Shown: positions 18,019-36,381 of the stretch, one piece after another
Layout: each line of letters begins with the position of its first letter
Position numbering within the stretch: position 1 is the stretch's first letter
From: Streptomyces celluloflavus
Lineage (GTDB): Bacteria > Actinomycetota > Actinomycetes > Streptomycetales > Streptomycetaceae
Assembly: GCA_000720995.1 (NCBI GenBank)
Contig: JOEL01000016.1
Coordinates: 62,001 to 126,000 of the forward strand
Direction of reading: 5' to 3'
Length of the DNA: 64,000 nt
Notes under the pieces: generated by a model
What the model saw: only the letters and a program-made list of their open reading frames with translations
Database searches by the model: none
Told to the model about the DNA's origin: nothing
Made by a program: the position numbers and the translations under genes

Positions 18019-18025
18019 TCACCCC

Positions 18026-18734: not shown

Positions 18735-19232
18735 TCAGGGTTCCTTCTTGTCCCGCGAATTGAGCGTCGACACAAAGGAGTTGAGGTCGTCGAGCACGCG
18801 GGTCAGGCCCTCCCGGCCGAGCGGCCGGGTGAGCTCCCGCTCCACCTCGTGGGCTATGGCGTCGCCCTCTCCCATGCGATGGCGCCCGTGTTCGGTGAGG
18901 AACGCGCCCACGATGCGGCCTCGCGGCTGCGACTGCCGTTCCACCAGCCCCGCCGACTGGAGCCGGTCGAGCATCGTCGTGACGGCCGCCGGGCTCACAT
19001 CGGACCTGCGGGCGATCTCGGCGCCCGCGATCCCCGGCTGCTCGTCGATCAGGCGCAGGACGGCCCACTGGGAGGCGCTGAGACCGATCGGCGCGAACGC
19101 CGCGTTGACCGCGGCGTCCACCGCGCGGCCCGTTTGGTAGAGGGCGGTCATCAGCGGGGGCTTGACCGCCGAGGGGTGCGCCCCGCCCGCGGAAGCCCCG
19201 GACTTCGGAGGGAGTGTGGGGTCCTGCGCCAT
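18735..19232 (-). CDS. MarR-family transcriptional regulator
   Basis: This 165-residue winged-helix regulator has a recognition region ISAPEIARR-like in this protein (AGAEIARRSDVSPAAVTTMLDRLQSAGLV) followed by the wing QPRGRIVGAFLTEHGR, with dimerisation helices at both ends. I place the start at 19232; an upstream ATG at 19298 would translate through the promoter region. It is divergent from the amidohydrolase-MFS operon, the usual layout for a MarR repressor controlling an efflux gene. Candidate sites are the GTTAA-CACA-TTAAC palindrome at 19437 and the repeat at 19299-19321. Confidence 0.85.
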   Translation of the reverse strand: MAQDPTLPPKSGASAGGAHPSAVKPPLMTALYQTGRAVDAAVNAAFAPIGLSASQWAVLRLIDEQPGIAGAEIARRSDVSPAAVTTMLDRLQSAGLVERQSQPRGRIVGAFLTEHGRHRMGEGDAIAHEVERELTRPLGREGLTRVLDDLNSFVSTLNSRDKKEP

Positions 19233-19298
19233 GGCCTGTCGCCACCTTCCCTGCTGCCGGTCCGCCCCGCCGCATCGGGCGGGCCTGTCCGACTCCAT

Positions 19299-19321
19299 AT
19301 CGACTAGCACAATCACTCGAT
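19299..19321. promoter_or_regulatory. Inverted repeat upstream of marR-like gene
   Basis: Arms ATCGA (19299-19303) and TCGAT (19317-19321) flank a 13-bp spacer, 67 bp upstream of the MarR start. The size suits an autoregulatory MarR operator, but the arms are short. Confidence 0.35.
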
Positions 19322-19422
19322 CGAAGTCTGTACCAACGGCCCCCGCGATGCCAGTGGCCCGGCAGCGGCGGTCCGGTGGTGAGCGGGTGCCGCGGGGTGC
19401 GAAAAATCCCCACAATTTCACC

Positions 19423-19459: not shown

Positions 19460-19635
19460 AGCGATCTTGGATCTGTGTTCTTTCCGCATGCTCCGCGTGC
19501 GGAGATCGGTATTTCTCGAAATTCCCTCCGCAGCACACCACTGACACCGCCATGAGGCGCGCGAATGCCGCCCGGTACCGCGTGCTCGGTGTATGTATCC
19601 GACGGTGCAGGTATCCGATCGACGGGAGAGCTTCG

Positions 19636-20982
19636 ATGAGTCACACAGCGGACGCGTCCGCGGACGATTTCGTGAATCCGGTGAGCCCGATCGGCCCGGA
19701 CTCACCACCAGCAGGCGGCCCCGGTGCGCTCGCCCTCGTCGGCTGCACCGTCGTCGACGGCGCGGGCTCGCCGCCGCTGCGCCAGGGCGTCATCGTCGTC
19801 GAAGCGGGCCGCATCACGGCTCTCGGGCCGGCCGGGAGCGTACGCATCCCGGACGCCGCCCGGATCCTGCGGTGTGACGGGCAGACCGCCCTGCCGGGCC
19901 TCATCGACTCGCACACGCACATCGACCGGGACGTCCCGGCGGTCCTGGGGGTACTCCTCAAGGACGGGGTGACCAGCGTGGGCAACACCGGCTGCGGGCC
20001 GGACATGGTGCCGCAGCTCCACCGGGCCGGAGCGCACCCCGCCGCCGCCCGCGTGTTCACCTCCGGGCCCGCGCTCACCGCCCCGGGCGGCTATCCGGGC
20101 ACCCGCGGCGACGGCACCGTCGCCCGCGGCGTCACCTCCGCCACCGAGGCCGAGGCGGCCGTCGACGAACTGGTCGCGCTCGGTGCGGACTTCATCAAGC
20201 TGGCCCAGGAGCCGTTCGATTTCAACTTCCGCTCCCCGGGCCACCTCCCGGTCCTCGGCCCCGGACCGGTCGCCGCCGCCGCCCGCCGTGCGAAGGCACA
20301 CGGCCTGCCCGTCCGCTCCCACGTCCACAACGTCACCCAGCTGGACATCGCCCTCGACGCCGGTGTCACCAGCGTCGAGCACATGCTCTTTCCGCTGCCG
20401 CCCGAGGCGGACTACCACGAGCTCTACCGCGACGGCGCCCTCGGCACGGCCGCGCTCCCCGACCTGTGCCGGCGACTGCACCGCATGGTGGAGAGCGGCG
20501 TCTACCTCGTCCCCACCATCGGCAACGAGCTCATCAACATCCGCGACGGCCTGCCGGACTTCCCCGAGGACGGCCTCCGGGCCATCGAGGAGCTCATGGT
20601 CACCGTCCTGTCGCAGTATCTCGAAGCGGGCGGACGGGTCGCCCTGGGCAGCGACTGGGTGGGCCGGCCCGGCGTCCCGGCGGGAATGCCGCGCCAGGAG
20701 CTGCGGTACCTCCTCGCCGCCGGTATGACCCCGCTCCAGGTCGTCGAGGCGAGCACCCGCAACGCGGCCCTGCTCTGCGGTCAGGGACGGACGCTGGGCG
20801 TACTGGAACCCGGCCGGTGCGCCGACCTGATCGTGGTCGACGGAGACCCGCTGCGGCCCGACGCCGCACTGGACGGCATCCGCGCCCGCACCGTCGTCAA
20901 GGACGGACAGCTCGTCTCCCTCACCGATGCCGGCAGCCCCGCCCCGCTGCGGCATCCCGTCCCCGCGGACCCTCCGCGATGA
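19636..20982 (+). CDS. Imidazolonepropionase-like amidohydrolase
   Basis: This encodes a 448-residue metal-dependent hydrolase of the HutI/prolidase-like branch of the amidohydrolase superfamily. An N-terminal beta-sandwich segment (LALVGCTVVDG, then VIVVEAGRITALG) precedes the barrel. The metal motif LIDSHTHID is at about residue 90, with a Lys-type text DFIKLAQE, the RSHVHN histidine motif, SVEHM, and LGSDW with the catalytic Asp. The C-terminus returns to the sandwich with the ILEPGRCADLIVVDG-like motif (here VLEPGRCADLIVVDG). GGGAG precedes the ATG at 19636. Its stop overlaps the start of the MFS gene, so they are translationally coupled. It could hydrolyse a cyclic amide or lactam related to the exported compound. 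Confidence 0.85.
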   Translation: MSHTADASADDFVNPVSPIGPDSPPAGGPGALALVGCTVVDGAGSPPLRQGVIVVEAGRITALGPAGSVRIPDAARILRCDGQTALPGLIDSHTHIDRDVPAVLGVLLKDGVTSVGNTGCGPDMVPQLHRAGAHPAAARVFTSGPALTAPGGYPGTRGDGTVARGVTSATEAEAAVDELVALGADFIKLAQEPFDFNFRSPGHLPVLGPGPVAAAARRAKAHGLPVRSHVHNVTQLDIALDAGVTSVEHMLFPLPPEADYHELYRDGALGTAALPDLCRRLHRMVESGVYLVPTIGNELINIRDGLPDFPEDGLRAIEELMVTVLSQYLEAGGRVALGSDWVGRPGVPAGMPRQELRYLLAAGMTPLQVVEASTRNAALLCGQGRTLGVLEPGRCADLIVVDGDPLRPDAALDGIRARTVVKDGQLVSLTDAGSPAPLRHPVPADPPR

Positions 20983-22496
20983 AACGCGACGCCCCTCCGG
21001 TGGCCGGGGGCGCACCGCCCGCCACGCGCGGCGGGCCGTCACCCTGGAAGACGCTGCTCGCGGTATCCGTCGGCTCCTTCATGACGATCCTGGACGTCAC
21101 GGTCGTCAACGTCGCCATCCACTCCCTCCAGCAGGAGTACGCGGCATCCACCGCCGCTGTGCAGTGGGTGGTCAGCGCGTACGCGCTGGCGCTGGGCATC
21201 GCCACCCCGCTGGCCGGTGCGCTCGGCGAGCGGTTCGGTACGAAACGGGTCTATCTGATCTCCCTGGGCTGCTTCGCCGCCGCCTCGCTGCTGTGCGGCC
21301 TCGCGCCGACCCTCCCGCTGCTCATCGTGGCGCGCGCCCTCCAGGGCATCGCCGGCGGCTTCGCGCTGCCGCTGGGCTCCGCCCGGCTGTTCACCACCTT
21401 CCCTGCGGAGAAACGCGGCCTCGCCTTCGGCGTCTTCGGCGTCGTCCTGGTCTTCGCGCCGACCGTCGGGCCGCTGGTGGGCGGCGCCTTCGTGGACGCC
21501 GGACTGCTGCGCTGGATCTTCTTCATCAATGTGCCGATCGGTGCGCTCGGCGTCCTCCTGGGGAGCCGGTTCATCCTGCCCGACGGACCCCGGCAGGCGG
21601 CCGCCCGCCGGATCGGCCTGCCCAGCGTCGGCCTGGTCTGCGTGGGCTTCGGCGGACTGCTCCTGGGCGCGTCCCTGCTCGGCTCCCGTACCGCCTCGTC
21701 CGGCGGCGCCGCGGTGCCCGCCGCGTTCGCCGTCGGCGCCCTCGCGCTCGCCGTACTCGTCGCCGTCCAGCTCCGTTCGGCCGCGCCCCTGCTCCATCTG
21801 CGGCTCTACCGCATCCGCACCTACGCCATCGGCAGCGTCATCAACGCCCTCGGCCAGATCCCCTTCTTCGGGACGCAGTTCCTGCTGCCGCTGTCCATGC
21901 AGGTGGTCCGGGGCGTCTCCGCGCTGGACGCGGGGCTGGCCCTGCTGCCGCTGGCCCTCGCCTCCGGCGTCGCCGGCGTCCTCGCGGGCCGGGTGCGGGA
22001 CCGTTGGGGGCCCCGGCTGCCGCTCACCGCGGGCTTCCTGCTGCTCGCCGGAGGCATCGCGCTGCTGCGCGCACGGGCCTCGGACCCCGACCCGCTCGGC
22101 CTGGTGGGGCCCTTGCTGCTGGCCGGCGCGGGCGCGGGCGCGATCCCGCCGACCACCCAGGTCACCGCCCTCAGCGACGTGCCCCGGGAAGCGGTCGGCA
22201 ACGGGACCGCGCTGCTCCAGGCGACCCAGCGCGTCTGCCAGGCGCTCGGCGTCGCGGTCCTGGCCACGCTCGTCGCGCGCGATGTGACGGCACCGGCCGG
22301 CAGCCCGGTGTTCCGCACGGAGTACGTCGCCGGGCTCTCCACCGCCTACACCGTCGCCATGTACGCGGCGCTCGTCTGCGCCGCGCTCGCCGTGCTGCTG
22401 CCCGGCTGGCCGGCGCCCCACCCCAAACCCCTCCCCACGACGGCCCCCGGCAAGGACCTGGCGTCCGGACCGGAGACCCCGTCGGAAGCCCCCTAG
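20979..22496 (+). CDS. MFS drug exporter, DHA2/EmrB family
   Basis: This encodes 505 residues with 14 predicted helices. Helix 1 carries the family phrase SFMTILDVTVVNVA, with WVVSAYAL in helix 2 and the loop motif GERFGTKRVYL between helices 2 and 3. Motif C is in the fifth helix (VFGVVLVFAPTVGPLVGG). Such proton-driven exporters give self-resistance and secretion in many antibiotic clusters, including RebT in the rebeccamycin cluster. The start overlaps the amidohydrolase stop (ATGA), and the LAL regulator gene begins 15 bp after its stop. It is the best candidate exporter for the bisindole product. Confidence 0.88.
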   Translation: MKRDAPPVAGGAPPATRGGPSPWKTLLAVSVGSFMTILDVTVVNVAIHSLQQEYAASTAAVQWVVSAYALALGIATPLAGALGERFGTKRVYLISLGCFAAASLLCGLAPTLPLLIVARALQGIAGGFALPLGSARLFTTFPAEKRGLAFGVFGVVLVFAPTVGPLVGGAFVDAGLLRWIFFINVPIGALGVLLGSRFILPDGPRQAAARRIGLPSVGLVCVGFGGLLLGASLLGSRTASSGGAAVPAAFAVGALALAVLVAVQLRSAAPLLHLRLYRIRTYAIGSVINALGQIPFFGTQFLLPLSMQVVRGVSALDAGLALLPLALASGVAGVLAGRVRDRWGPRLPLTAGFLLLAGGIALLRARASDPDPLGLVGPLLLAGAGAGAIPPTTQVTALSDVPREAVGNGTALLQATQRVCQALGVAVLATLVARDVTAPAGSPVFRTEYVAGLSTAYTVAMYAALVCAALAVLLPGWPAPHPKPLPTTAPGKDLASGPETPSEAP

Positions 22497-22511
22497 GAAC
22501 AGCGCGACCCC

Positions 22512-25508
22512 ATGCGGCAGGACCTGCCGCGACCCGCGCGCGGTGCGGACGAGCCCGCCGCCTCCCGTCCGCGAAAGGTGCAAGTCCCCGCCATGGGAAA
22601 GGTGACCACCCGGTACGACGGCGAGCGCGAGCCGGGATCCGAGGCCCGCGCCGACCGGTCCCGTCCGGCCGTACGGCCCCTGCGCGGGCGTGAGGAGGAA
22701 CTGCGCCTGCTCTGCCGGGCCCTCGACCGGGCACAGAACTCACGGCGTGGCACGGAAGGATGGCTCAACGGCCCGGCCGGCATCGGCCGGACCCGCCTGC
22801 TGCGCGAGGCCGAACGCGCGGCGTCCGCACGGGGCTTCACGGTGATCCGGCTCAAGGGCGAGGAGTTCTCGCCGTCCGTGGCGCTGGGCTCGCTGGTCCA
22901 CGCCCTCACCGGGCCGCCGGACGCCGAGCGCACCCCGAGCGCGCCCGGCGTGACCCGCGAGACGCCCGACGACCGGCATCTCCCGGCCGCCTCGCTGACG
23001 CTGCTGGACGCCCGCCTCAAGCGGTCCCCGCTGCTGATCACCTGCGACGAGGGCCCCGCCCCGTCCCTGACCCCGGCGCTGCGCCCCCTCATGGCCCGGC
23101 TCCGGAACTCCCCGCTGGTGTGGCTGACGGCCCGGCGCACCGAGCGGGAACCGGCGGAGACGGCCGCGCGCACCCTGGCCCGGCCGCCGCGGGATCCGCC
23201 GGGAACCCTGCGGATCACCCTCGGACCGCTCTCCGACGACGCCGTCTCGCAACTGTTCGCCGACCGGCTGGGCGGTCCGCCCGACGCCGAACTGCGCACC
23301 CTGCTCGGCCTCGCCCAGGGCAACCCCCGGCTGCTCGCCGCGGTCTGCCGGCAGCTCCTGGAACACGGCGGTGTCCGGGTGGAGAGCGGCACGGCCCGGC
23401 TGGCCACCGAGGACGGCGACGCCACGGCGGAGGTACGGACCCCGGCCACACCCCGCCCGGTACCCCGCTGGTTCGACGCGCTGATGGACGAGCGGCTGGC
23501 GACGGTGTCCCCGCAGACCCGTCTGCTCATGGAGGTCGCGACCGTACTGGGCCCAGCCTGCCTCCCGGAGGACATCGCGGAGATGCTCGGCGAACCGGTG
23601 GGGGCACTGGTACCGCGGTTCCGGGAAGCGGTCGCGGCGGGCATGCTGCAACGCGGCAGCGACACCGTGACGTTCCGCCACGACCTGATGCGGCAGGCGC
23701 TCGTGGCGGACCTGCCCGCGGTGGTCCGCGGCGCCATGCACCGGCAGGCGCTGGGCATCCTCATGGCGCGCGGGAGTTCCGCGGCGGCGGTGGCCACCCA
23801 CCTCATCCACGGCGCGCACCGCGGGGACCCGGCCATGGCGGGACTGCTCCGCCGGGCCGCCGAGGAGTCGGTGACCACCACCCCCCGGACCGCCGCGGAC
23901 CTGGCGCTGCGCGGCCTCGAACTGGTCGGGCCCGTCGTCGACGAGGCACACGAACCGCTCACGGTGATCGCCGTGGAGGCATGCGTACGCGCCGGTTCGC
24001 TCCCGACCGCCGTCACCCTGGCCCGCGACGCCCTCATCCGCCCCCTCGATCCGGAGACCGCGGCGCGGCTGCGCTACTGGCTGTCGACGGCACTGCTGCT
24101 GCTCGGCCGGACCGCCGACTGCCTGGATGTCGCCGAGGAACTCCTCGCGCATCCCGGCGCCCCCGCCCACCTGCGGCAACGGGCCGTACTCAACCAGCTC
24201 GCCGCCTGGTCGGCGCAGGACGAGGCGCGGGGTGTGCAGCACGCCGAACGGGTGCTGCGGGAGGCCGGCGACCTCGACATCCAGGCGGGCGTCACCACCA
24301 CGCTCGCCGTGATGCGGTGGCGCGCGGGACGGCTCAACGAGGCGCTGTCGCTCTGCCAGGAGGCCGCCGAACTCGCCGACGGCGGGGCCGCCATCGAGTG
24401 GCACACCCATCCGCGGCTGATGTCCGCCATGATGCTTGCCCACACCGGCCGGTTCGCCGAGGCCGAAGCCGCGCTCGGGAAGGCACCGCGCACCGTCGAA
24501 TTCGTCTCGGCGGGGGTGCCCAGGCTGGTGCGCGCGCGGCTGCGGCTCGCCCGGGGCGAGCTCGACGAGGCCGCGCGCGAGGCGGCCGCCGGACTCGCCG
24601 TCGTTGAGCAGGCCGGGGCCGGTGTGCTGATGCCGCTGGCCTGGCTGGTCCTCGCGACGGTGGCCTCGTACCGGGGTGAGCTGGCCGAGGCGGGCGAGTA
24701 CGCGCGCCGCCTGAGGGACGCGCTGCCGGACGACCGCGGGCGGGTGTGCGCGGCGGCCGCCGCCTGGATCGAGGCGCAGATCGCCCTGGCGAGCGGCGGT
24801 GACCAGGCGCTGGAGACCGCTGTCGAGGAGCTCTGGACGAACGAGTGCGGCCGCCGGGCGTTGCTGATCGAGGAGCCCGCGTTCGCACCGTGGCTGGTCC
24901 GCCTCCTGCTGGCCGGCGGCCGGCGGACCCGGGCGGCCGCCGTCAGCGCGGCGGCGGACCGGCTGGCGCGGACCAATCCCGGTATCACCGCGGTGCGCGC
25001 GGCCGCCGACCACGCCCGCGGCCTGGTCGAACGGGACGCCGCCGCCCTGGAGTCGGCCGCCGCGCACCACCGCGACGCCTGGGTACGCGCCTCGGCGGCC
25101 GAGGACCTGGGCGCCCTGCTGACCGACACCTCCCGGGCACTTGCCGCGCAGCACCTGGAGAGCGCCCTCGCCCGGTACGGACAGCTGGGGGCGGCGGGTG
25201 ACACCGCCCGGGTGCGCCGCCGGCTGCGGGCGATCGGTGTCCGCCGCCGCCACTGGACCCGCTCCGACCAGCCGAAGACCGGCTGGCAGAGCCTGACGCG
25301 CACCGAACACACCGTGGCCGAGCACGTACTCCAGGGGATGACCAACCGTCAGGTCGCCGTCCGCATGTTCCTCTCGCAGCACACGGTCGCCTTCCATCTG
25401 CGCCAGATCTTCCGCAAACTCGGTGTCCACTCCCGGCTGGAACTGGCGCGCTACCGGCAGAGCACCGGGCACGACGGCACGCCCCGCGCCGGGTGCGCCG
25501 ACCGGTGA
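22512..25508 (+). CDS. LAL-type LuxR-family regulator (StaR/RebR-like)
   Basis: This 998-residue regulator has an N-terminal AAA-type ATPase domain, a long helical TPR-like middle and a C-terminal LuxR HTH (LTRTEHTVAEHV, then NRQVAVRMFLSQHTVAFHL). The Walker A site at 87-94 reads GPAGIGRT, with Arg where Lys is expected; a Walker B-like LLITCDE follows. The Lys-to-Arg change may weaken ATP hydrolysis. LAL proteins StaR, RebR and InkR activate indolocarbazole clusters, so this is the probable pathway activator for the adjacent bisindole genes. The ATG at 22512 is 15 nt after the MFS stop; an ATG at 22593 is an alternative start. Confidence 0.87.
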   Translation: MRQDLPRPARGADEPAASRPRKVQVPAMGKVTTRYDGEREPGSEARADRSRPAVRPLRGREEELRLLCRALDRAQNSRRGTEGWLNGPAGIGRTRLLREAERAASARGFTVIRLKGEEFSPSVALGSLVHALTGPPDAERTPSAPGVTRETPDDRHLPAASLTLLDARLKRSPLLITCDEGPAPSLTPALRPLMARLRNSPLVWLTARRTEREPAETAARTLARPPRDPPGTLRITLGPLSDDAVSQLFADRLGGPPDAELRTLLGLAQGNPRLLAAVCRQLLEHGGVRVESGTARLATEDGDATAEVRTPATPRPVPRWFDALMDERLATVSPQTRLLMEVATVLGPACLPEDIAEMLGEPVGALVPRFREAVAAGMLQRGSDTVTFRHDLMRQALVADLPAVVRGAMHRQALGILMARGSSAAAVATHLIHGAHRGDPAMAGLLRRAAEESVTTTPRTAADLALRGLELVGPVVDEAHEPLTVIAVEACVRAGSLPTAVTLARDALIRPLDPETAARLRYWLSTALLLLGRTADCLDVAEELLAHPGAPAHLRQRAVLNQLAAWSAQDEARGVQHAERVLREAGDLDIQAGVTTTLAVMRWRAGRLNEALSLCQEAAELADGGAAIEWHTHPRLMSAMMLAHTGRFAEAEAALGKAPRTVEFVSAGVPRLVRARLRLARGELDEAAREAAAGLAVVEQAGAGVLMPLAWLVLATVASYRGELAEAGEYARRLRDALPDDRGRVCAAAAAWIEAQIALASGGDQALETAVEELWTNECGRRALLIEEPAFAPWLVRLLLAGGRRTRAAAVSAAADRLARTNPGITAVRAAADHARGLVERDAAALESAAAHHRDAWVRASAAEDLGALLTDTSRALAAQHLESALARYGQLGAAGDTARVRRRLRAIGVRRRHWTRSDQPKTGWQSLTRTEHTVAEHVLQGMTNRQVAVRMFLSQHTVAFHLRQIFRKLGVHSRLELARYRQSTGHDGTPRAGCADR

Positions 25509-25534
25509 GCGCGACCGGCGTCCCGCCGGCCGGT

Positions 25535-26851
25535 TCAGCCGGGCGGCCGGTCCGGTCCGGTCCGGAGCGGCCCCGCGCGGCCGCTCCGCCCACCGGTGCG
25601 CAACCACAGCTGCGCCGGGCCGTGGAACACCAGATCGTCCGCGTACGGCACCGGCCGGCCGGCCAGCCGGGCGTCGGGCAGGAACTCCAGCATCGCCGCG
25701 AGGCCGATCTCGACCTCGGCCCGCGCCAGCGCGGCCCCCAGGCAGTAGTGGATGCCCAGGCCGAAACCGAGATGCCGGTCGGGGGGCCGGTGGATGTCGA
25801 GGACATCGGGCCGGGCGAAGTGCCGGGGGTCCCGGTTGGCTGACCCCAGCAGCAGCATCACCTTCGAGCCGCGGCGGATGCAGTGCCTGCCGAGGGTCAC
25901 GTCCTGGTAGGCCCACCGGCTCACGGCCTGCACCGGTGAGTCGAACCGGACGAGTTCGTGGACGGCCCCCGGCAGCAGCGACGGCGACGCGCACAGCTCG
26001 GCGAGCGTGCCGGGCCGGTCGAGCAGGGCCAGTACCGACTTGGCGAGGGTGTGCGTCGTGGTCTCGTGGCCGGCGGTGAGCAGATGGACGCAGGTCGCGG
26101 CGATCTCGTCGTCCGACAGCGGCCCACCGGGTCCGGACGCGCGGTCCGGGAGCGGGCCGGGCTCCCGTACCAGCAGCGATATGAGGCCCGCCGTCGGCCC
26201 GTCGCGCCGCTGCCGGATCTGGTCCCCGAAGAAGTCACGGAGTTCCCGGGCGGCGGTGCCGGCGCGGGCGTACCCGTCCGGACCGGCACCGGCCCGCGAG
26301 GTGCTCGCCTCTTGGAGGCGCACGGAGCGTTCCCGCAGCCAGCCGCGGTGCTCCCCGGGTATGCCGAGCAGTTCGCAGATGACCAGGACGGGAAAGGGCG
26401 CGGCGAACTCCGCCACCAGATCGGCGACGTCCTTGCGCCGCAGATTCGCGAGGAGTTCCCCGGCGATGTCCCGGATCCGGGCCCGCAGGCCGAGGACCAC
26501 CTTGGGGGTGAACTCCGCGCTGAGCCGGGACCGCAGGGCGGTGTGCCGGGGCGGATCCAGGAACACCAGCCAGTTCGCGATCATGGTGTGCAGGGCCTGG
26601 TGACGGCCGGCCGGCCGGGGCGCCGCGACGCCCGCGGCGGCGGCCGCGCTGCGCCCGAACCGCTGACTGGAGAGCGCCTCGGCGACCTGGTCGTAGCCGA
26701 AGACGTAGTGGGTACCCGGTTCGTCCGGCGGCCCCGGCACGTAGTGCACGGGGGACTTCTCCCGGTAGCGCAGATAGACGGGGTAGGGATCGGCGAGGGC
26801 CGCGGCGGGCCAGCCCCGCAGGCCGAACGGTGGCAGATCGTCGGTCGGCAT
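25535..26851 (-). CDS. Cytochrome P450 of the bisindole cluster
   Basis: This 438-residue class I P450 has the I-helix AGHETTT, the K-helix ExxR in HELVRF and the heme loop FGLGIHYCLGAALAR. The start ATG at 26851 follows AGGAGG by 5 nt. It is the last gene of the leftward operon after the RebC-like gene, the position where StaP/RebP, which fuses chromopyrrolic acid into the six-ring core, would be expected. However, it does not carry the GHVST I-helix text I remember for StaP; it keeps the common acid-alcohol pair, and its N-terminal half reads unlike StaP. It may do the aryl coupling or a different oxidation. Confidence 0.85.
   Translation of the reverse strand: MPTDDLPPFGLRGWPAAALADPYPVYLRYREKSPVHYVPGPPDEPGTHYVFGYDQVAEALSSQRFGRSAAAAAGVAAPRPAGRHQALHTMIANWLVFLDPPRHTALRSRLSAEFTPKVVLGLRARIRDIAGELLANLRRKDVADLVAEFAAPFPVLVICELLGIPGEHRGWLRERSVRLQEASTSRAGAGPDGYARAGTAARELRDFFGDQIRQRRDGPTAGLISLLVREPGPLPDRASGPGGPLSDDEIAATCVHLLTAGHETTTHTLAKSVLALLDRPGTLAELCASPSLLPGAVHELVRFDSPVQAVSRWAYQDVTLGRHCIRRGSKVMLLLGSANRDPRHFARPDVLDIHRPPDRHLGFGLGIHYCLGAALARAEVEIGLAAMLEFLPDARLAGRPVPYADDLVFHGPAQLWLRTGGRSGRAGPLRTGPDRPPG
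25563..25588. terminator. Hairpin at the LAL/P450 convergent junction
   Basis: A perfect 10-bp stem (25563-25572 and 25579-25588) with a 6-nt loop lies inside the 3' end of the P450 coding sequence, 55 bp past the LAL stop. It may terminate the rightward LAL transcript. Confidence 0.45.
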
Positions 26852-26895
26852 GGTGCCTCCTCCTCGCGGGAGTGGTGGACGCGCGCTCGCGCGGT

Positions 26896-28518: not shown

Positions 28519-28561
28519 CTGTCTCGCCTTCCTGACGTGGAGGGGAACGGGGCCGGACAGG

Positions 28562-31500
28562 TCACGACGCACGGAAACGGGCGGCCAGGAAGGCCAGCGT
28601 CTCCGGCACCCGGTCCGGGATGACGGGGTACTTCCGCGCGGTCTGCGCGAGGTCGCCGAAGCGCTGTGCGAAGGCGCGCCGGGCGACGTCCGGGCGGGCG
28701 AGGGGCTCCGGCGCCCTGCCGAGCGCGAACGGTGCGCCGGTCGTCCGGCCCGGCACCCCCGACGGCAGCACCGCCAGCAGCTCGGCCAGGGGCTGCAGCA
28801 CACCGTTCATGACCTCGATGGAGCAGTTCATGAGGTCCGACCGCCGCAGGCTCGCGTCCGGGCACTCGCCGAAGTGCTGGACCATGAGCTGGGCCATCAT
28901 GAAGTAGGAGCCGTTGCAGAGCCCGGCGACCTGACGGGCCGTCGGCTCGGTGATGACCTGCCGGGCGGTGCCGCCCGCGGTCAGGGTCGGGTTGCGCAGC
29001 ACCGGATAGGCGAAGTCCGGTGCCGGGTGGTGGCCCGGCGGCCGGTTCAGGCGCATGGCCATCAGCAGATCGGAGATCCGCAGAAAGGCGTCGAAATGCG
29101 ATTCCTCGTCCGGCGGTGCCGCCCCCGGGGAGAGGACCTGGCCCTCGCCCTGTTCGGTGATGAAGTCGACCGCGAAGAGCGCGCTGGCCAGGTCGTCGAC
29201 CTCCAGCTGGTAGTCGGGGTGCACGGAGTTGACCGACTTCCGCAGGAACACATGGTGCTCCCCGCCGCCCCGTCCCCGGTCCACCAGGAACAGGCCGGGG
29301 ACGCGCCGGAGCCCCTCCCGTACGTCGGCGTACAGCTCGCTCAGTGAGGTGTACACGGCCCGGCCGGGGGCCTCACCGCAGGACGGAGTGCCCAGCCCGC
29401 CGTAGCCGACGTCACCGACGATGCGGTGCGGCTGCTCGATGGCGATGAACCGCTGCATACTGCCGACGTCCAGGGCTTCCAGCGAGAAGTCGAGCGGGAC
29501 GAGCAGTTCGTTGTTGACGGTGCCGAAATCGATCGCGGGAAAGTGGAACGGCTCACCGAGCGCCATGAGGATGTTGTTGGCGACGAGGAAGTGGACCATC
29601 TCCTCCCGGGCCACCCGCAGCAGGGTGCTGCGGACCCCGTCGTCGAGGGTCTCCCCGCCGTCGCCGCAGACCGCCCGCAGTTGTTCGGCCGTCCACTTCC
29701 GCCGGCGCACATACTCCAGCCCGGCGCCGTGCAGCGGCAGCGAATAGGCCGCGTAGAGGTACTGGAGGGTGACCGCGAGCTCGATCATGACGGCGTGCCG
29801 CACCGTCGCCACCAGGTGGTCGCGGGTGCGGATGCCCGGGGCCGGGCGCGGGGCGGCCCGGCGGGTGGTGAGGACCGTGCCGGGGGTGTCGCGCAGCCGC
29901 AGATAGGCCAGCAGCAGCCGGGCCTTGGGCTCCGACAGATCGCGGCTGGGCGGCATGTAGTACGTCTTCGCCTTGTTCTTCGGGTCGGACATCTGCCAGA
30001 TCAGCCGGGCGTAGGTCTCCACCCGGAACCGGTCCGCCAGGCTGAAGACCTTCTCCTTCATGAAGGAGAACAGCAGTTCGTAGAAGGCGAAGACCTCGGT
30101 GTGGACCAGGCCGAAGGTCACCTCGTCCGGCGGTACGGCGGCCAGCCGCCAGTCGTCGGGCAGCACCCGCACCGACAGGTGGCCGGCGCCCGACCAGTAG
30201 CCGAGCCGGTCGTCGTTGTCGTATGCCACGGCGGCGGAGCCGGGCCGGGACGGCGCGGCGGGCAGGTCCTCGTCCGCCGCCGACAGCAGGATTCTGGCGC
30301 AGCCGGGCCGCGCGCCCCGCAGCACGAAGGACCCGCGCCCCTCGTCGTCGGTGCTGATGGTGCACCCGTCCGCCCAGCCGGAGTCGCCCTCGGCGTGGCC
30401 GGGGCGCAGCCGCACGATGCCGATATCGGTGGCGCGCGCCCGGGGCGAGCGGGCCGCCGGGTCCCGGGGGAGGGCGCGGGGGTTGAAGAACTGCCGGACG
30501 TGGACGGCGCCGAGCGGGCCGGGCCGCCCCCGGACCAGGGACCGGACCGCGACCCGGACGTCGTAGGAGTCGTCGTGCTCGCCGTCCGGGTGGTCCACGA
30601 TGAGGCACGCGTCGTCCGCCTGGAGGTTGACCTCCCGCTCGGCCAGTACCGGGATCCGGTCACCGGCGCCGCCGCGCACGACCAGGCGCAGCGCCTCGTG
30701 CCCGGCCGCGGCCGCCCCCGGCCGGCGGGGTACGGTCACCACGCCGCTGGTCAGGTCCCGGTCCAACGGCCAGGCACCGGCGGGCAGTTCGGCCACCAGG
30801 CGGTCGCTGCGCGCCGTCCGCAGTTCCCAGCCGCCGCCGTCGGCGTCCCGGCGGGCCGCCGACGACGGCGGGCCGGCGATCAGGTTGAAGGTGACCTGCT
30901 CCGGTCCCACCTCGACGGTGAGCTGGCGCGGTACCGGGTACGGGTGGCCGCCCGGCGGTCCCTGCGCGGTGAGCAGCCGTCCCGCGGGGTACGAGCGCAG
31001 CTCGTCGGCCCGCCATGGCGCGATCGTGCCGTGGATCCGCCAGGGGGTGGGGTGCCCGGGGACGGTCGGTGCCGCGCCGCCGCGGAGGGCGAACTGCACG
31101 ACGAGACCGTCGCTGCCGCCGGACTCCACCTCGGCGCGCAGGTCCGCCACGACGGGGGACTGCGCCGACCGGGTTGACTGCTCGGGCCAGTGCAGCGCGC
31201 CGGCACCGGCGACCACGAACTGGTACACCGCCGACAGCGGCAGCCGGGAGGCCGCCGGTCCTTCGGTGCCGACGGGCGGGGCGAAGACCTGCCAGCGCGG
31301 CGGCTGGAACCCCTCGACATCACCGGTGCAGAGATAGCCGACGTCCAGCGACCGCCCCTGCCGGCCGAAGCCGAGCTGGCCGATCATGAGGGTGGTGGTC
31401 CAGTTGGAGGACGGATCGACGTCGAACACCCGGGCCCGGTTGGCCGTGGTGGCGAAGTACTCGTTGTAGTGGCCCCACAGATCGACGCTGCGGCCGACCA

Positions 31501-31789
31501 CCGGATCGTCGGTGCGCACCGCTCCGGCGGCGCGTTCCGTGCCGACGATCCGGGCCTCGACGGCGAAGTGGCCGCTGCCGCCGAACTGCGGACCCGCACC
31601 GGAATCCGGCCCCATGCCGTACAGCACGTCGTGGTACTCACCGGCCGGCCGGTCCACCGGGAACGGCCGGCCGTCGGGGGTCAGCGCGGTGTTCGTCGCG
31701 AGGTCCACCAGTCCGCTGCGCGGCCCGGTGGGCAGCTGTGTGGTGGCGGTGCCGGCGAAGTGCAGCCGCGGGAGGTCGAAGACGCTCAT
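28562..31789 (-). CDS. Chromopyrrolate synthase (RebD/StaD/VioB family)
   Basis: This 1075-residue protein has the start SVFDLPRLHFAG and the size typical of RebD, StaD and VioB. These heme-containing enzymes couple two molecules of indole-3-pyruvate imine into chromopyrrolic acid or its precursor dimer. The N-terminal half is beta-rich and variable. The C-terminal half is the ferritin-like helical region (HAVMIELAVTLQYLYAAYSLP, then REEMVHFLVANNILMALGE) with the metal-ligand-like ExxxH pattern. The ATG at 31789 overlaps the stop of the oxidase gene by 4 nt, so the two enzymes are made together, as expected for hand-off of an unstable imine. It is the diagnostic gene of the cluster. Confidence 0.93.
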   Translation of the reverse strand: MSVFDLPRLHFAGTATTQLPTGPRSGLVDLATNTALTPDGRPFPVDRPAGEYHDVLYGMGPDSGAGPQFGGSGHFAVEARIVGTERAAGAVRTDDPVVGRSVDLWGHYNEYFATTANRARVFDVDPSSNWTTTLMIGQLGFGRQGRSLDVGYLCTGDVEGFQPPRWQVFAPPVGTEGPAASRLPLSAVYQFVVAGAGALHWPEQSTRSAQSPVVADLRAEVESGGSDGLVVQFALRGGAAPTVPGHPTPWRIHGTIAPWRADELRSYPAGRLLTAQGPPGGHPYPVPRQLTVEVGPEQVTFNLIAGPPSSAARRDADGGGWELRTARSDRLVAELPAGAWPLDRDLTSGVVTVPRRPGAAAAGHEALRLVVRGGAGDRIPVLAEREVNLQADDACLIVDHPDGEHDDSYDVRVAVRSLVRGRPGPLGAVHVRQFFNPRALPRDPAARSPRARATDIGIVRLRPGHAEGDSGWADGCTISTDDEGRGSFVLRGARPGCARILLSAADEDLPAAPSRPGSAAVAYDNDDRLGYWSGAGHLSVRVLPDDWRLAAVPPDEVTFGLVHTEVFAFYELLFSFMKEKVFSLADRFRVETYARLIWQMSDPKNKAKTYYMPPSRDLSEPKARLLLAYLRLRDTPGTVLTTRRAAPRPAPGIRTRDHLVATVRHAVMIELAVTLQYLYAAYSLPLHGAGLEYVRRRKWTAEQLRAVCGDGGETLDDGVRSTLLRVAREEMVHFLVANNILMALGEPFHFPAIDFGTVNNELLVPLDFSLEALDVGSMQRFIAIEQPHRIVGDVGYGGLGTPSCGEAPGRAVYTSLSELYADVREGLRRVPGLFLVDRGRGGGEHHVFLRKSVNSVHPDYQLEVDDLASALFAVDFITEQGEGQVLSPGAAPPDEESHFDAFLRISDLLMAMRLNRPPGHHPAPDFAYPVLRNPTLTAGGTARQVITEPTARQVAGLCNGSYFMMAQLMVQHFGECPDASLRRSDLMNCSIEVMNGVLQPLAELLAVLPSGVPGRTTGAPFALGRAPEPLARPDVARRAFAQRFGDLAQTARKYPVIPDRVPETLAFLAARFRAS

Positions 31790-33309
31790 GCCGGTTCCTC
31801 CGACACCGCGCAGCCGCCGGTGACGACCGCCGTGCTCCCGCCGGTCTCGTGGAACTCGATCTCCCGTACGGCGTTGTCCGCCGATTCGATGGCGCCCTCG
31901 ATCCAGGCCGGATACGTGGAGCAGTGCTCGCCGGCGAAGAACAGCCGCCCCTGCGGGCGGGCCGCCGAGCGCCGTTCCGCCTCGCAGGTCGCGATGTCCT
32001 TGCCCCAGCGGACGGCCGCCGCCCCTCTGCTCGACGGAGCCGTGCCCCACACCTGGTCCGCCACCCCGAGGATCATGCCGGGTATCTTCAACTGCGGGTG
32101 TATGGCGGTCAGTTCGTCCAGTATCAGGGCGATGCGGTCGGGCCGGCGGAGGCGGCCGAGCACATCCGCGTCGTCCCCGATCGTGTAACTGGCGAGCAGG
32201 GCCGCGCCGAGCGCCGGGTCGTCCGCGGCCGGCGGGTAGTAGGTCTGCCGGATCAGCCCGCCGGTGAAGGAACCGCCGCCGGTGATGCCCTCCGCCTCCC
32301 AGAACGCCTCGCGGCAGTGAAAGGCGACCTTGGTGGCGGACCAGTACTTCATATCGTGCACGATCGCCCGCTTCTCGTCGTCGAACCCGACCAGATCCAT
32401 GGTCCGCAGTACGGAGAAGGGGACGGTGCACAGCACGTAGTCGCAGTTCCTGGTGACCGTGCCGAAGCCGCGCCGCATACGGAGCACGACGTCGCGGTCG
32501 CGCACCTCTATCCCCACCACTTCCTGGCCCCGGCCGATCGGCCCGCGGACCCGGTCCCGCAGCCGGTGCGCGATCTGGTCCATACCGCCGTGCAACCGTA
32601 TGAGGCGGGAACTGGTCTCGTTGACGATGTCCTCGACGAACCGGTACAGCCGCCCGGTGCAGCCCGCCTGGATCTGCGGATGGCCGGCGAACAGGGCGTG
32701 CAGATCGATCCGGTCCCTGCCGCGGCCGTACACATACGGCCTGAGGTCGATTCCCTCGACCAGCCCGAGGATCTCGCGGTCCAGCCCGTCGTGGATGCTC
32801 TCGCGGAACCTGCGGGGTGCGATGGCGTTCACCCGCACGGCCAGCCAGGCGCCGAAGAGCACCGTCGCATCGTCGTAGTCGTGGCTGCCCAGGCGCCGCC
32901 GCAGTTCCGCCACGAGCGTCTGCGAGGCGTCCTGTATGCGCTGATGTCCGGAAGGCGTTTCCAGATAGGCGGCGTCGTCCTGGAAGAGGGTCCGGAACTC
33001 CCTGACCCGGTCCGCGAGGCCGAGTTCCCGGATGTAGTGCATGGTGCGGCGGTGGGTGGCCGGGACGCGCATGGCCCCGAGTTCGACCGAGGGACCCGGC
33101 CGGCCGGGCAGAAAGCGGTGGGTGCGCACCCGGCCGCCGACGTCCAGGCGCCCCTCCAGTATTTCGACACGGTGGCCGCGCCGTTCGAGTTCGTACGCCG
33201 CCACGAGGCCGGATATCCCGGCACCGATGATGGTGATCTTTTTCTTCGGTCTGCCGGGGGAGGGGAGGGGCTGCTCGGTGGTCTGCGGAGAAACGGTCGG
33301 CATGCGCAT
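31786..33309 (-). CDS. L-tryptophan oxidase-like flavoenzyme (RebO/StaO/VioA)
   Basis: This encodes a 507-residue FAD amine oxidase. The dinucleotide-binding motif IIGAGISGLVAAYELERRGH is near residue 27, followed by GGRVRTHRF, and the C-terminal FAD contact is FFAGEHCSTYPAWIEGAIESA. Beside a chromopyrrolate synthase gene, it should oxidise L-tryptophan to indole-3-pyruvate imine. I start it at the ATG at 33309, 6 nt after GAGG; an ATG at 33303 is a less well spaced choice. It is the first gene of the leftward operon, and no halogenase gene is linked, so the substrate is probably unmodified tryptophan. Confidence 0.92.
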   Translation of the reverse strand: MRMPTVSPQTTEQPLPSPGRPKKKITIIGAGISGLVAAYELERRGHRVEILEGRLDVGGRVRTHRFLPGRPGPSVELGAMRVPATHRRTMHYIRELGLADRVREFRTLFQDDAAYLETPSGHQRIQDASQTLVAELRRRLGSHDYDDATVLFGAWLAVRVNAIAPRRFRESIHDGLDREILGLVEGIDLRPYVYGRGRDRIDLHALFAGHPQIQAGCTGRLYRFVEDIVNETSSRLIRLHGGMDQIAHRLRDRVRGPIGRGQEVVGIEVRDRDVVLRMRRGFGTVTRNCDYVLCTVPFSVLRTMDLVGFDDEKRAIVHDMKYWSATKVAFHCREAFWEAEGITGGGSFTGGLIRQTYYPPAADDPALGAALLASYTIGDDADVLGRLRRPDRIALILDELTAIHPQLKIPGMILGVADQVWGTAPSSRGAAAVRWGKDIATCEAERRSAARPQGRLFFAGEHCSTYPAWIEGAIESADNAVREIEFHETGGSTAVVTGGCAVSEEPA

Positions 33310-33625
33310 CAACTTCCTCGCTCAATTTCGTCGCCATTGTTGGGTCCGGCGGACGCCCGCCACATCCCCGGTCCGGGCGGGAACGCGGGTGGTTGACGCG
33401 CGGTCCGCCACGAGCGGCACGGCGGTGGTACGACCGGCACCCCGCACGAACGGACGGTCTGCCGGCCGCCGCACCGGCCGGGCCCCGGATCAGGGCGATC
33501 CTGGGCTCCCCGGTTCTCCGCCGGCGACGCGCACCCCGACCGGGTGTCCGGCCACGGGGTGAGCGGCCGTCACCACGGGCTCACCGGGGTTCCAGCGGTC
33601 CGGCGCGAGCCGGCGGGAGGGGGCA
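33310..33625. promoter_or_regulatory. Divergent control region of the bisindole cluster
   Basis: This 316-bp spacer separates the leftward core operon from the rightward tailoring genes and must hold both promoters. It should also hold the LAL activator site. I could not pick a convincing -35/-10 pair or repeat by eye. Confidence 0.5.
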
Positions 33626-34741
33626 GTGGTGGAGCAGCGCACACTCGACGACCGGAGCGGTGGGGACGCACCCCGCACGGCACCGTCCGACCCCGGCGAC
33701 GCGACCGGGCCACCACCGGGCGACGGGGCCATGCCCGAACCGCTGGAGCGGGCGGTGTTCGGTATCCACGCCACGCACGCCGTCCAGCTGGCGGACCGGC
33801 ACGGGGTGTTCGCCTTCCTGATCGCGCACGGCGCGAGCCGTACCGGGAACATCGCCGCCGCCACCGGGACCGACGAGGAGACGCTGCGCCGGCTGCTCAT
33901 CGCGCTCCAGGCGTTCGGCGTGCTGACCGGGGACGACCGCGACGGATACCGGGTGCCCCCGGAATCCGCCCCCTATCTGGACCCGGACAGCCCCCGCTAC
34001 ACCGGCGCGTTCCTCCAGCACCTCGTCACCAGCACCTCCGGGCGGCTGCCCCAGCTGGCCGACTATGTCGCGCGGGGCAAGGCGCGGGTGGACGCGGACC
34101 TGCCCGCCCCCTTCGACGCGATGTACGCCGACGAGGGATCGACGGCGACCTTCCTGCGCGCCATGTGGCAGCTGAGCTTCGAGGTCTCCGACGAACTGGT
34201 GGCGCTCGCCGGACTGGGCGCGGCCCGGCACCTGGTGGACGTCGGCGGGGCCAACGGCCCCTTCTCGGTCTCCGCGCTGCTCCGTACGCCGGCGCTCCGC
34301 GCGACCGTCTTCGACCTGCCGCACGTGGCACCCCACCTCGCCCGCTCCCGGGACGCGTACGGCCTCGGTGAGCGGCTCCGCTTCGCCCCCGGCGACTTCT
34401 TCCGCGACGAACTGCCCGAGGGTGACCAGCTCGCCTTCGGCTACGTCCTGTCGGACTGGGACGACGACACCTGCGCGACGCTGCTGCGCAAGGCGCGGCG
34501 GGCCTGCGCCCCCGGCGGGCGGGTGCTGGTCATGGACCGGCTCTTCGACGACGACGGCCACCGTCCGCTGGCCACCGCGGTGATGAACCTCTCCATGCAT
34601 GTCGAGACCCGGGGCCGGCACCGGACCGCGGGCGAATACCTGGGCCTGCTGCGTGACGCGGGGTTCACCGACTGCGAAGTGCGCCGCTCCAGCCGCGAGA
34701 AGCACCTCGTCATCGGCCACTCGGCACCCGACGGAGGCTGA
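33626..34741 (+). CDS. O-methyltransferase, PF00891 type
   Basis: This 371-residue SAM methyltransferase has the plant-OMT architecture. A winged-helix dimerisation domain (about 40-120, DEETLRRLLIALQAFGVL) precedes the Rossmann domain with LVDVGGANGPFSVSALL. GDFFRDELPEGDQLAFGYVLSDWDD holds the catalytic region; the usual catalytic His of HDW is replaced by Ser (LSDWDD). The C-terminus is RSSREKHLVIG. Tandem GTG codons at 33626 and 33629 follow GGGAGGGGG. It begins the rightward tailoring operon, 3 bp before the TDO-like gene, and probably methylates an oxygen or nitrogen of the bisindole. Loss of the His means the reaction may differ from classic O-methylation. Confidence 0.88.
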   Translation: MVEQRTLDDRSGGDAPRTAPSDPGDATGPPPGDGAMPEPLERAVFGIHATHAVQLADRHGVFAFLIAHGASRTGNIAAATGTDEETLRRLLIALQAFGVLTGDDRDGYRVPPESAPYLDPDSPRYTGAFLQHLVTSTSGRLPQLADYVARGKARVDADLPAPFDAMYADEGSTATFLRAMWQLSFEVSDELVALAGLGAARHLVDVGGANGPFSVSALLRTPALRATVFDLPHVAPHLARSRDAYGLGERLRFAPGDFFRDELPEGDQLAFGYVLSDWDDDTCATLLRKARRACAPGGRVLVMDRLFDDDGHRPLATAVMNLSMHVETRGRHRTAGEYLGLLRDAGFTDCEVRRSSREKHLVIGHSAPDGG

Positions 34742-34744
34742 CGG

Positions 34745-35908
34745 ATGCGAGGCATACCGCCCGAGGTGAGCCTGCCGGGCGCGGCGGAGGACATCGTCCG
34801 GATGCAGGGCGCCCATGGCAGGGCCGGACTGACCGGGGCGGACCGCGCACGGCTGGCCGGCTGGCACGAGAGCGCCGCGGCCGGCGGCGGCGCGGAGCAG
34901 GAGATCGTACGGCTGCTGACCCGGCCGTTCAGCCGCCGCGAACAGATCCCCGAGTACTACCGCTACACCAGCCTGCACGTCTACGACTGGTTCCTGGCCC
35001 CGTACGCGGACGAACCGGTCGCCGCGGGAATCAGCGGGCTGCGGGCGACTCTCGCCGATCTCGCCGCCCGGGAAGGGGCCCGCGCGGATCTGGTCTCCGG
35101 CGCGGCCCCCTATCTGCCGGAGCGACTGGCCCGATTGCGGGAATTGATCGAACAGGTGGACGCGGTGGCCATCGCCCCCGAAGGGCCGGTGCGGGGCGCC
35201 GGCGGCATGGGGCGGGTGGACCACGACGACGTGCTGAGCTGGCGGCTTTCCGTACTCACCCGGTGCACGGCGTTTCCCCAGTCCGATGACGACAATGAGC
35301 ATCTGTTTCTGCGGGCCGTGCATTCCTGCGAACTCGCGTTCTATCTGGCACGGTGGACCGCCTGCCGGGCGATCACCGCGATAGCCGCGGACGACCCGAC
35401 GGCGGCGGCTTTCCGTATCGGCCAGGTAGCGGAATTCGCCCAACTGCTCAACGGAATCTTCCATGTCCTCAAAACGCTCTCACCGCAGCAGTTCATGAAC
35501 TTCCGCGAGGCCACCGGGGCGGCCAGCGCCGTACAGTCGCTCAACTTCCACCTCATGGAGCTTGCGCTGTTCGGCTACGATCCCCGGAAATCCGAGGTGT
35601 TCTGCGGGATCCGCCACCTCAGAATGCTGAACGATCCGCCGTATCGTGACCACTGGCCGCTGCGTGACGCCGTTATCGCCTCCGGGAAGCCGGAGTTGAG
35701 GACGGCATTCGACGCGGTGGAACGGTCGATGCTGACCTGGCGGGGACGGCATTACGGATTCGGCCGGCTCTATCTGCCCCGTCAGCTCAAGGGGTCCGGT
35801 GGCACCGAAGGAGCCGGATACCTCAAGAGATTCGTGAACAAAGACAGTTGCCTTCCCGGAACCCCGGGACCGGTCGACGAGGCGATGTTCAAGTTCGCCC
35901 TGCAGTGA
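34745..35908 (+). CDS. Tryptophan 2,3-dioxygenase-like heme protein
   Basis: This 387-residue protein of the TDO/heme-dependent aromatic oxygenase fold is divergent. EHLFLRAVHSCELAFYLARW (His193) matches the distal-His helix of TDO. GQVAEFAQLLNGIFHVLKTL and FREATGAASAVQSLNF (Arg254) match its substrate-site helices. RHYGFGRLYLP (His336) with GSGGTEGAGYLKRF matches the proximal-His region. It is longer than bacterial TDO and has an N-terminal extension of about 60 residues. GGAGG lies 7 nt before the ATG, 3 bp after the OMT gene, so it belongs to the cluster. Some members of this superfamily, such as MarE, oxidise indoles to oxindoles rather than cleaving them. Its substrate could be tryptophan or the bisindole. 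Confidence 0.75.
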   Translation: MRGIPPEVSLPGAAEDIVRMQGAHGRAGLTGADRARLAGWHESAAAGGGAEQEIVRLLTRPFSRREQIPEYYRYTSLHVYDWFLAPYADEPVAAGISGLRATLADLAAREGARADLVSGAAPYLPERLARLRELIEQVDAVAIAPEGPVRGAGGMGRVDHDDVLSWRLSVLTRCTAFPQSDDDNEHLFLRAVHSCELAFYLARWTACRAITAIAADDPTAAAFRIGQVAEFAQLLNGIFHVLKTLSPQQFMNFREATGAASAVQSLNFHLMELALFGYDPRKSEVFCGIRHLRMLNDPPYRDHWPLRDAVIASGKPELRTAFDAVERSMLTWRGRHYGFGRLYLPRQLKGSGGTEGAGYLKRFVNKDSCLPGTPGPVDEAMFKFALQ

Positions 35909-35967
35909 CCGACCGGCTCTCCCGCTCGTTTTCCGGGGCGCCACCAGACCACAACAGGAGCCCCTCA

Positions 35968-36381
35968 GTGACCATCATTCCGATTCTGTCCGCCGACGCC
36001 GCCCGTCGCGTTCTGGACGCCGCCCTGGCCAAGGCGGCACAGCTGAACGTCGCCGTCGCGGTCGCCGTCGTGGACAGCGGCGGCAACCTCCAGACCCTCG
36101 CCCGGATGGACACCGCCACGTTCTGGTCCACCACCATCGCCACGCACAAGGCGGTCACCGCGGCCGGACTCGGCGTACCCACCGTGGCGTTCGGCAAATT
36201 CGCCGCACAGGACCCGATCCTGCTGGCCACCATGGCCACCCAGCCGGGTTCCGCGCTGCTGCCCGGCGGCATCCCGATCGTCGTCGACGGCGCGATCGCC
36301 GGGGCCATCGGGGTGGCCGGCGGGACCAAGGGCGAGGACGAGCCCATCGCCGAGACGGGCGTGACCGCCGCGGCGGGCTGA
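35968..36381 (+). CDS. HbpS/GlcG-like heme-binding protein (DUF336)
   Basis: This 137-residue protein of the PF03928 fold includes VAVAVVDSGGNLQTLARMD, then THKAVTAAG and LLPGGIPIVVDGAIAGAIGVAGG. HbpS of S. reticuli, in this family, binds heme extracellularly, but this copy has no signal peptide. The GTG at 35968 has AGGAG 7 nt upstream. It directly follows the TDO-like gene and may deliver or store heme for it, or may be a small cofactor-binding accessory as seen beside other oxygenases. Confidence 0.85.
   Translation: MTIIPILSADAARRVLDAALAKAAQLNVAVAVAVVDSGGNLQTLARMDTATFWSTTIATHKAVTAAGLGVPTVAFGKFAAQDPILLATMATQPGSALLPGGIPIVVDGAIAGAIGVAGGTKGEDEPIAETGVTAAAG

Follow-up and report, generated by a model that had tools for sequence, protein, structure and literature searches.

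Indolocarbazole gene clusters are defined by the genes for a tryptophan oxidase (O), a chromopyrrolate synthase (D) and a cytochrome P450 (P) (PMC10851217). The rebeccamycin (reb) and staurosporine (sta) clusters combine an O, D, P, C core with a LAL-type regulator (RebR) and an exporter, and ring substitution of the rebeccamycin type comes from a tryptophan halogenase. The BE-13793C cluster (bec) of Streptomyces sp. MA37 has an O-D-C-P core and an unglycosylated, ring-oxygenated product, but its published table includes no O-methyltransferase (OMT), tryptophan 2,3-dioxygenase (TDO) or HbpS gene and gives a 221-amino acid (aa) LuxR regulator, not a LAL (PMC7024260). The cladoniamide/BE-54017 clusters contain O, D, C and P genes, a large regulator and an OMT, but differ in two extra flavin oxygenases, a halogenase and the action of the OMT on a late hydroxyl, with neither TDO nor HbpS listed in the published gene table (PMC3158105). 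The present analysis concerns a gene cluster of Streptomyces celluloflavus in a stretch of 64,000 nucleotides (contig JOEL01000016.1, positions 62,001 to 126,000), hereafter the window, whose numbering is used throughout. It shares the core, the LAL regulator and the exporter with reb and sta, whereas it has no sugar or halogenase genes and carries OMT, TDO-like, HbpS, amidohydrolase and MarR genes; its predicted product resembles BE-13793C in being unglycosylated and ring-oxygenated.

Adjacent OMT and TDO-homologue genes are known from nonribosomal peptide synthetase (NRPS) clusters. In ohmyungsamycin biosynthesis, ohmK (TDO homologue) and ohmJ (OMT) were subjected to in-frame deletion and complementation, and the authors read them as an L-tryptophan 4-hydroxylase and a 4-O-methyltransferase which act on free tryptophan to give 4-methoxy-L-tryptophan; the ohmJ deletion yielded demethoxy products too, not hydroxy ones, and the ecumicin and argyrin clusters are reported to carry OhmJ/OhmK homologues (PMC6920865). 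ZelD/ZelE and Arg4/Arg5 are described likewise in the zelkovamycin paper (PMC8631618). These systems resemble the window in having the two genes together, but feed the amino acid to an NRPS, whereas the window pair is proposed to feed a tryptophan oxidase and a chromopyrrolate synthase. MarE of maremycin biosynthesis, as well as TDO and indoleamine 2,3-dioxygenase (IDO), have the fold, the heme His and the carboxylate-binding Arg in common with the window TDO-like protein, which differs from them in a Val at the position of the distal His and in its OMT partner. In MarE, as in TDO, His55 is described as binding the indole nitrogen and Arg118 as binding the carboxylate (PMC11904535).

We propose, at a probability of roughly 0.6, that the window cluster makes a ring-methoxylated indolocarbazole from modified tryptophan. 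The core appears to be ordinary, and the unusual part would be a methoxytryptophan module joined to an indolocarbazole cluster, a combination that seems to mark a small coherent family. Genes were called by a codon-position scan with six-frame reading and named from Pfam, NCBIfam and PDB sequence matches. The cluster extends over 18735/19552-36381, with ten genes in 19552-36381 and a MarR gene just before them.

The core genes lie on the reverse strand and encode an L-tryptophan oxidase-like flavoenzyme of the StaO/RebO type (an L-amino acid oxidase, LAAO; 31786-33309, Pfam Amino_oxidase 6.5e-53), a 1075-aa chromopyrrolate synthase of the StaD/RebD type (28562-31789, Pfam Ferritin-like 5.8e-32), a RebC/StaC-type FAD monooxygenase (FMO; 26896-28518) and a StaP-type cytochrome P450, the indolocarbazole synthase (25535-26851). 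Since they occupy one strand, with an ATGA overlap between the first two genes and gaps of 43 and 44 bases before the FMO and P450 genes, their arrangement is operon-like. StaP (2z3t) is the sole PDB match of the P450 at E<=1e-100 (1.3e-131; 2.3e-131 with the longer frame, the next chain being at 1.8e-64), and RebC (2r0c) is the best match of the FMO (about 1.2e-215 to 1.3e-215). Thus all three defining genes, and the RebC/StaC-type enzyme, are present, the O assignment being based on membership of the amine/L-amino acid oxidase family, adjacency and relatives and not on a RebO structure match. The LAAO gene adjoins that of the chromopyrrolate synthase in the loci read, including 21 other loci of the genus with homologues 47-59% identical to the synthase. 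In 12 of these 21 loci (L090, L092, L097-L105, L107; L and G numbers denote our loci and genomes) an additional FMO was observed that matches the RebC-type enzyme at 27-31%, and our guess is that it resembles ClaX1-type oxygenases.

At ten sites separating 2r0c from 4eip, which we take to be the StaC-like RebC-10x, the window FMO is RebC-like at five, 4eip-like at three and neither at two. The RebC-like residues include F216 and R239 (numbering after a 20-residue tag offset), presumably important positions in RebC, so that the balance tilts somewhat towards an imide product and away from a lactam. PMC10851217 gives a description of RebC-10x itself.

The divergent arm looks like the 4-methoxytryptophan pair of the NRPS clusters. 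Across a divergent region (33310-33730), three forward-strand genes encode a COMT-type OMT (33731-34741, alternative start 33626; Pfam Methyltransf_2 4.9e-40), a TDO-fold heme enzyme proposed to be a tryptophan ring hydroxylase (34745-35908; TIGR03036 3.8e-17, PF03301 7.3e-13) and an HbpS-like heme-binding/degrading domain protein (35968-36381, frame open from 35848; PF03928 1e-29). Only 3 bases separate the OMT stop from the TDO-like start, the adjacency expected of the module. The OMT is 59-62% identical to five TDO-paired OMTs of non-indolocarbazole loci, and the TDO-like protein 44-51% identical to NRPS-linked members. COMT-type enzymes usually carry an LHDW motif whose His is catalytic; the window OMT reads LSDW at 34448-34465, with the Ser invariant in seven aligned OMTs. 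A Ser where homologues have His is also reported for RedM (PMC10784701).

Conservation of the pair was examined at several taxonomic levels. TDO matches at E<=1e-8 occur in 24 of the 392 genomes of the genus sample, eight of them (window included) reaching 44% identity. Among nine genus relatives read, an OMT homologue lies directly upstream of the TDO gene in six, the others being G227 and the two distant TDOs of G382 and G242 (30-31%), and a chromopyrrolate synthase is present in one (G358). A TDO-alignment scan of one genome per named species (84,980 species), which misses some relatives because only loci with two short peptide patterns are picked up, returned 23 named TDO-like loci; 22 have the OMT directly upstream (exception L050) and three are of the indolocarbazole type (L041, L042, L060). 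A class-wide scan gave matches at E<=1e-40 in 3 of 394 genomes, including one that lies outside the genus. NRPS genes are common neighbours of the pair, as NRPS domains were found in 11 of 15 non-indolocarbazole loci whose long frames within 10 kb were searched in pieces of ~1000 residues (from a total of 20, with L044, L048, L050, L054 and L057 left out); polyketide synthase domains were found in one (L062) and neither kind in three (L058, L061, L063). The 11 loci (L043, L045-L047, L049, L051-L053, L055, L056, L059), some with FtsX-type transporter genes, are candidates for methoxytryptophan peptides. Motif counts point to few modules in the NRPS genes that neighbour the pair in L055, L043, L047 and L051, and the three NRPS frames of G287 add up to 12,672 aa; none of these five could be identified as the ohmyungsamycin, ecumicin or zelkovamycin locus.

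A structure model of the TDO-like protein built with 8 sequences has a mean predicted local distance difference test score (pLDDT) of 79.3 and a predicted template modelling score (pTM) of 0.85, and all 50 matches shown by Foldseek against PDB are TDO or IDO (probability 1.00, best E 2.4e-3), at 14-21% identity. Active-site residues were mapped by hidden Markov model (HMM) alignment to the Xanthomonas campestris TDO (XcTDO), with 3bk9 and 3e08 (titled H55A and H55S mutants) marking residue 55. The TDO fold is accompanied by the proximal heme His that characterises the TDO/heme-dependent aromatic oxygenase superfamily (XcTDO H240, here H336). F51, R117 and T254 of XcTDO, the last of which we take to be an amino-acid anchoring residue, align with F188, R254 and S351, whereas the distal His H55 aligns with V192 and Y113 with F250. 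None of these six predicted active-site residues varies across the 30 family rows, which comprise 8 indolocarbazole-linked proteins and 22 others. Retention of the amino-acid anchors with loss of the indole-NH anchor fits hydroxylation of free tryptophan elsewhere on the ring, i.e. a turned ring, because the His that holds the indole nitrogen in MarE and TDO is lost here. A catabolic TDO was considered and rejected, as the protein scores 62.5 bits against the TIGR03036 equivalog cut-off of 390.7 bits and has V192 at H55, an OMT gene is the neighbour in 22 of the 23 named loci, and the genome has another TDO-family gene (G000:C21:35007-35792, contig C21; a 304-aa frame read by eye).

In the nearest relative, G358, the whole set of ten genes, amidohydrolase through HbpS, is kept in an unchanged arrangement (amidohydrolase start in L159), which argues that the cluster is not a chance grouping. 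Searching 297 genomes at the family level gave 17 with the TDO-like protein (E<=1e-40), and neighbourhoods were read for five of high identity (59-63%; G886, G910, G881, G927, G935), G881 being K. humi and the same place as L060, and G358 being near-identical to L042. Together with the loci above, the number of distinct Streptomyces/Kitasatospora-family genomes in which chromopyrrolate synthase and OMT-TDO genes are joined comes to at least eight: the window, G358, SID3343 (L041, cut by the contig end), K. humi, G886, G910, G927 and G935. HbpS accompanies the pair in all eight, and was found in none of the 20 other named TDO-like loci (E<=1e-15, within the fetched stretches) and none of the 21 other genus chromopyrrolate loci (20-kb stretches, E<=1e-10). 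Co-inheritance is also observed in the trees. A 30-row tree that leaves out the tested enzymes OhmK, Arg5, Ecu2 and ZelE places the TDO-like proteins from all eight indolocarbazole loci in a single clade (support 100/100); the indolocarbazole-linked OMTs group at 88/90 (29 rows); and in a quick tree of the chromopyrrolate synthases (29 rows) the OMT-TDO-linked members form one group with a Shimodaira-Hasegawa-like approximate likelihood ratio test (SH-aLRT) value of 100 (8 rows, 7 of them distinct, L042 and L110 being near-duplicates; the partial L041 was left out). Most simply, these three groupings suggest that the OMT-TDO module joined an indolocarbazole cluster once.

The initial annotation had described the four core genes as one operon, flanked by LAL activator and exporter genes and by a divergent arm of OMT, TDO-fold and heme-binding protein genes, and our gene calls, Pfam, TIGR00711 and PDB matches confirm these genes and their operon-like arrangement. 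The lack of visible glycosyltransferase and halogenase genes is borne out for the cluster genes by Pfam; for tryptophan halogenases the search extended to the whole genome and gave one marginal match only (62 positions, 22.5 bits), that for glycosyltransferases covering the cluster alone. The same annotation regarded the combination of genes as unfamiliar and suggested comparing neighbourhoods. At E<=1e-20, 25 of the 392 genomes sampled from the genus have a chromopyrrolate synthase; identity over a 400-residue query is >=58% in 23 of these, and only two of the 23 loci (window and G358) have OMT-TDO. The joining is unusual, whereas the pair itself matches the known 4-methoxy-L-tryptophan module.

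The reactions, ring positions and product that we infer are as follows. The TDO-fold heme enzyme would put one oxygen into free L-tryptophan, most likely at C4, and the OMT would convert the product to 4-methoxy-L-tryptophan, which the LAAO would oxidise to the indolepyruvate imine. The chromopyrrolate synthase would couple two such units into a dimethoxy-chromopyrrolate, mixed tryptophan/methoxytryptophan dimers being possible; the StaP-type P450 would link the indole C2 carbons, and the RebC-type FMO would steer the oxidation, with the imide as the more likely outcome. The resulting aglycone would be of the 4,8-dimethoxy-arcyriaflavin A type (C22H15N3O4, calculated [M+H]+ 386.1135); the calculated values for related compounds are 356.1030 (monomethoxy form), 326.0924 (arcyriaflavin A) and 372.1343 (dimethoxy-K252c). 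In S. cinnamoneus, growth together with mycolic-acid bacteria is reported to increase the yield of indolocarbazoles (PMC12159101). The product would be exported by the MFS (major facilitator superfamily) protein under control of the LAL and perhaps MarR, while the probable task of HbpS is to protect the supply of heme or to clear peroxide arising from the LAAO. The bisindole/indolocarbazole core is supported by StaP and RebC as top PDB matches, and the product expected by the initial annotation is supported in being unglycosylated (no sugar genes), methylated and further oxygenated; oxidation and methylation, taken there to act on a bisindole, would instead be steps on tryptophan. Placement of the oxygen and methyl before dimerisation is most likely, because the OMT-TDO pair matches the module described for NRPS clusters (PMC6920865, PMC8631618).

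Tailoring of the bisindole after its assembly by the OMT and the TDO-like enzyme appears improbable. Methyltransferases are reported to act late in cladoniamide/BE-54017 and reductasporine biosynthesis (PMC3158105, PMC10784701), but the ohmyungsamycin pair acts on free tryptophan (PMC6920865), the window protein retains equivalents (R254, S351) of the anchors R117 and T254, the pair is found beside NRPS genes without a chromopyrrolate synthase, and no homologue of the window OMT (E<=1e-10) was found when 20-kb stretches surrounding 21 other chromopyrrolate synthase genes were searched. Somewhat less improbable, though still unlikely, is the same logic with hydroxylation at C7, which would lead to 1,11-dimethoxy (or dihydroxy) arcyriaflavins related to BE-13793C, a compound proposed to arise from 7-hydroxytryptophan and for which the authors found no tryptophan hydroxylase gene in or near bec (PMC7024260). 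A BE-13793C/arcyriaflavin E producer equipped with a 7-hydroxylase is one form of this reading. By our own reasoning C7 substitution is less crowded, and the site next to V192 is His in all eight indolocarbazole-linked TDO-like proteins and Gln in 18 of the 22 others; on the other hand, the six predicted active-site residues do not distinguish the two groups, the tested relative is a 4-hydroxylase (PMC6920865), and the published bec lists no OMT or TDO gene (PMC7024260).

Less probable than either is that the TDO-like enzyme is a true dioxygenase or a MarE-like 2-oxindole former and that the cluster product is not an indolocarbazole. The TDO fold and family, and the 2-oxindoles reportedly formed by MarE, would be in keeping with it. 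However, the StaP/RebC pair requires a free indole C2 for coupling, and a hydroxyl product is in keeping with the OMT partner. The window protein also lacks H55, a residue that serves in TDO as well as in MarE (PMC11904535).

Several observations weigh against the methoxytryptophan-derived indolocarbazole proposed here. What links the window genes to the tested enzymes is their pairing and the protein family, with 44-51% identity to NRPS-linked members; the Foldseek E-values are weak (best 2.4e-3), as is, taken alone, the aligned block holding the heme His (4.3 bits). A missing distal His cannot be taken as diagnostic, since the other TDO-family protein of the genome seems, by eye, to have Thr there. 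Support was weak (87/11) in an earlier TDO-like tree, which included four members from indolocarbazole loci, the FMO residues are mixed between RebC and StaC at the ten discriminating sites, and C4-methoxy groups would, in our own reasoning, crowd the imide carbonyls. No MarR gene was found beside the cluster in the fetched stretches of G886 or G910. Finally, no StaP-type P450 gene was found next to the FMO gene in three Kitasatospora-group relatives, the search covering the whole gap to the LAL gene in G881 and under 2 kb in G927 and G935.

Among these Kitasatospora-group loci (L060, L151, L152, L153-L154), UDP (uridine diphosphate)-glucose dehydrogenase and epimerase-type genes lie downstream in K. 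humi and G927, a UDP-glucose dehydrogenase and a DegT-like aminotransferase being read by eye in K. humi. Because of these UDP-sugar genes and the lack of a StaP-type P450 by the FMO, members such as K. humi and G927 may make a different, perhaps glycosylated, bisindole.

On the other side of the core, a tightly spaced forward-strand block encodes an amidohydrolase resembling Xaa-Pro dipeptidase/imidazolonepropionase (19552-20982; Pfam Amidohydro_1 1.4e-20), a predicted MFS exporter of the EmrB/DHA2 type (20979-22496; Pfam MFS_1 3.1e-50, TIGR00711 284.2 bits, cut-off 230.2), whose start shares an ATGA overlap with the amidohydrolase stop, and a 998-aa LAL (large LuxR-type) activator (22512-25508) with AAA_16 near the N-terminus and GerE at the C-terminus (Pfam); the LAL and MFS genes converge on the core genes. 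The block is present in all four relatives read on that side (G358, G881, G886, G910), the G881 amidohydrolase being partial at the end of its stretch and that of G358 64% (residues 18-203) and 75% (205-474) identical to the window protein. The MarR-family regulator (18735-19421, reverse strand, divergent from the amidohydrolase; Pfam MarR 1.6e-14) shows homology only from residue 47, and its called start may be internal; a MarR gene 75% identical lies beside the amidohydrolase in G358. The amidohydrolase and MarR genes belong to the region, MarR less surely, and were absent from the initial gene list.

The limits of the unit were examined by comparing eleven flanking window frames with eight stretches of G358, G886 and G910. 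Of the eleven, eight gave no match at E<=1e-5 and two, both P450 frames, hit other P450s at 25-30%; the remaining one, MarR, has a neighbouring match solely in G358. As the outer frames are unmatched in the relatives, the unit appears to be bounded by HbpS and the amidohydrolase (MarR in the nearest relative). Soon after HbpS, 37546-41832 contains a terpene synthase gene (PF19086) with one strong P450 and one weak P450-like frame, which by this comparison would form a separate cluster; upstream, 16060-18635 encodes a 652-aa FG-GAP repeat protein and an ABM monooxygenase, both unmatched in the G358, G886 and G910 stretches.

A literature search, with most subscription journals outside its reach, returned no paper with both 'indolocarbazole' and 'methoxytryptophan'. 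We put at about even odds the wider idea that these loci represent a separate Streptomyces/Kitasatospora lineage, in which the scaffold would be built from methoxytryptophan and not from tryptophan or chlorotryptophan, HbpS would be a dedicated heme/peroxide partner required solely where the two systems have been combined, and the members without P450 but with UDP-sugar genes would make methoxylated, glycosylated or uncyclised bisindoles. If true, a heme hydroxylase/OMT pair would feed the same dimerisation enzymes and place methoxylated rings on a scaffold of kinase and topoisomerase drugs, and TDO-like hydroxylases would become candidates for the hydroxylase which the BE-13793C authors could not find. 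The methoxytryptophan pair would then be a portable module that also functions outside NRPS clusters.

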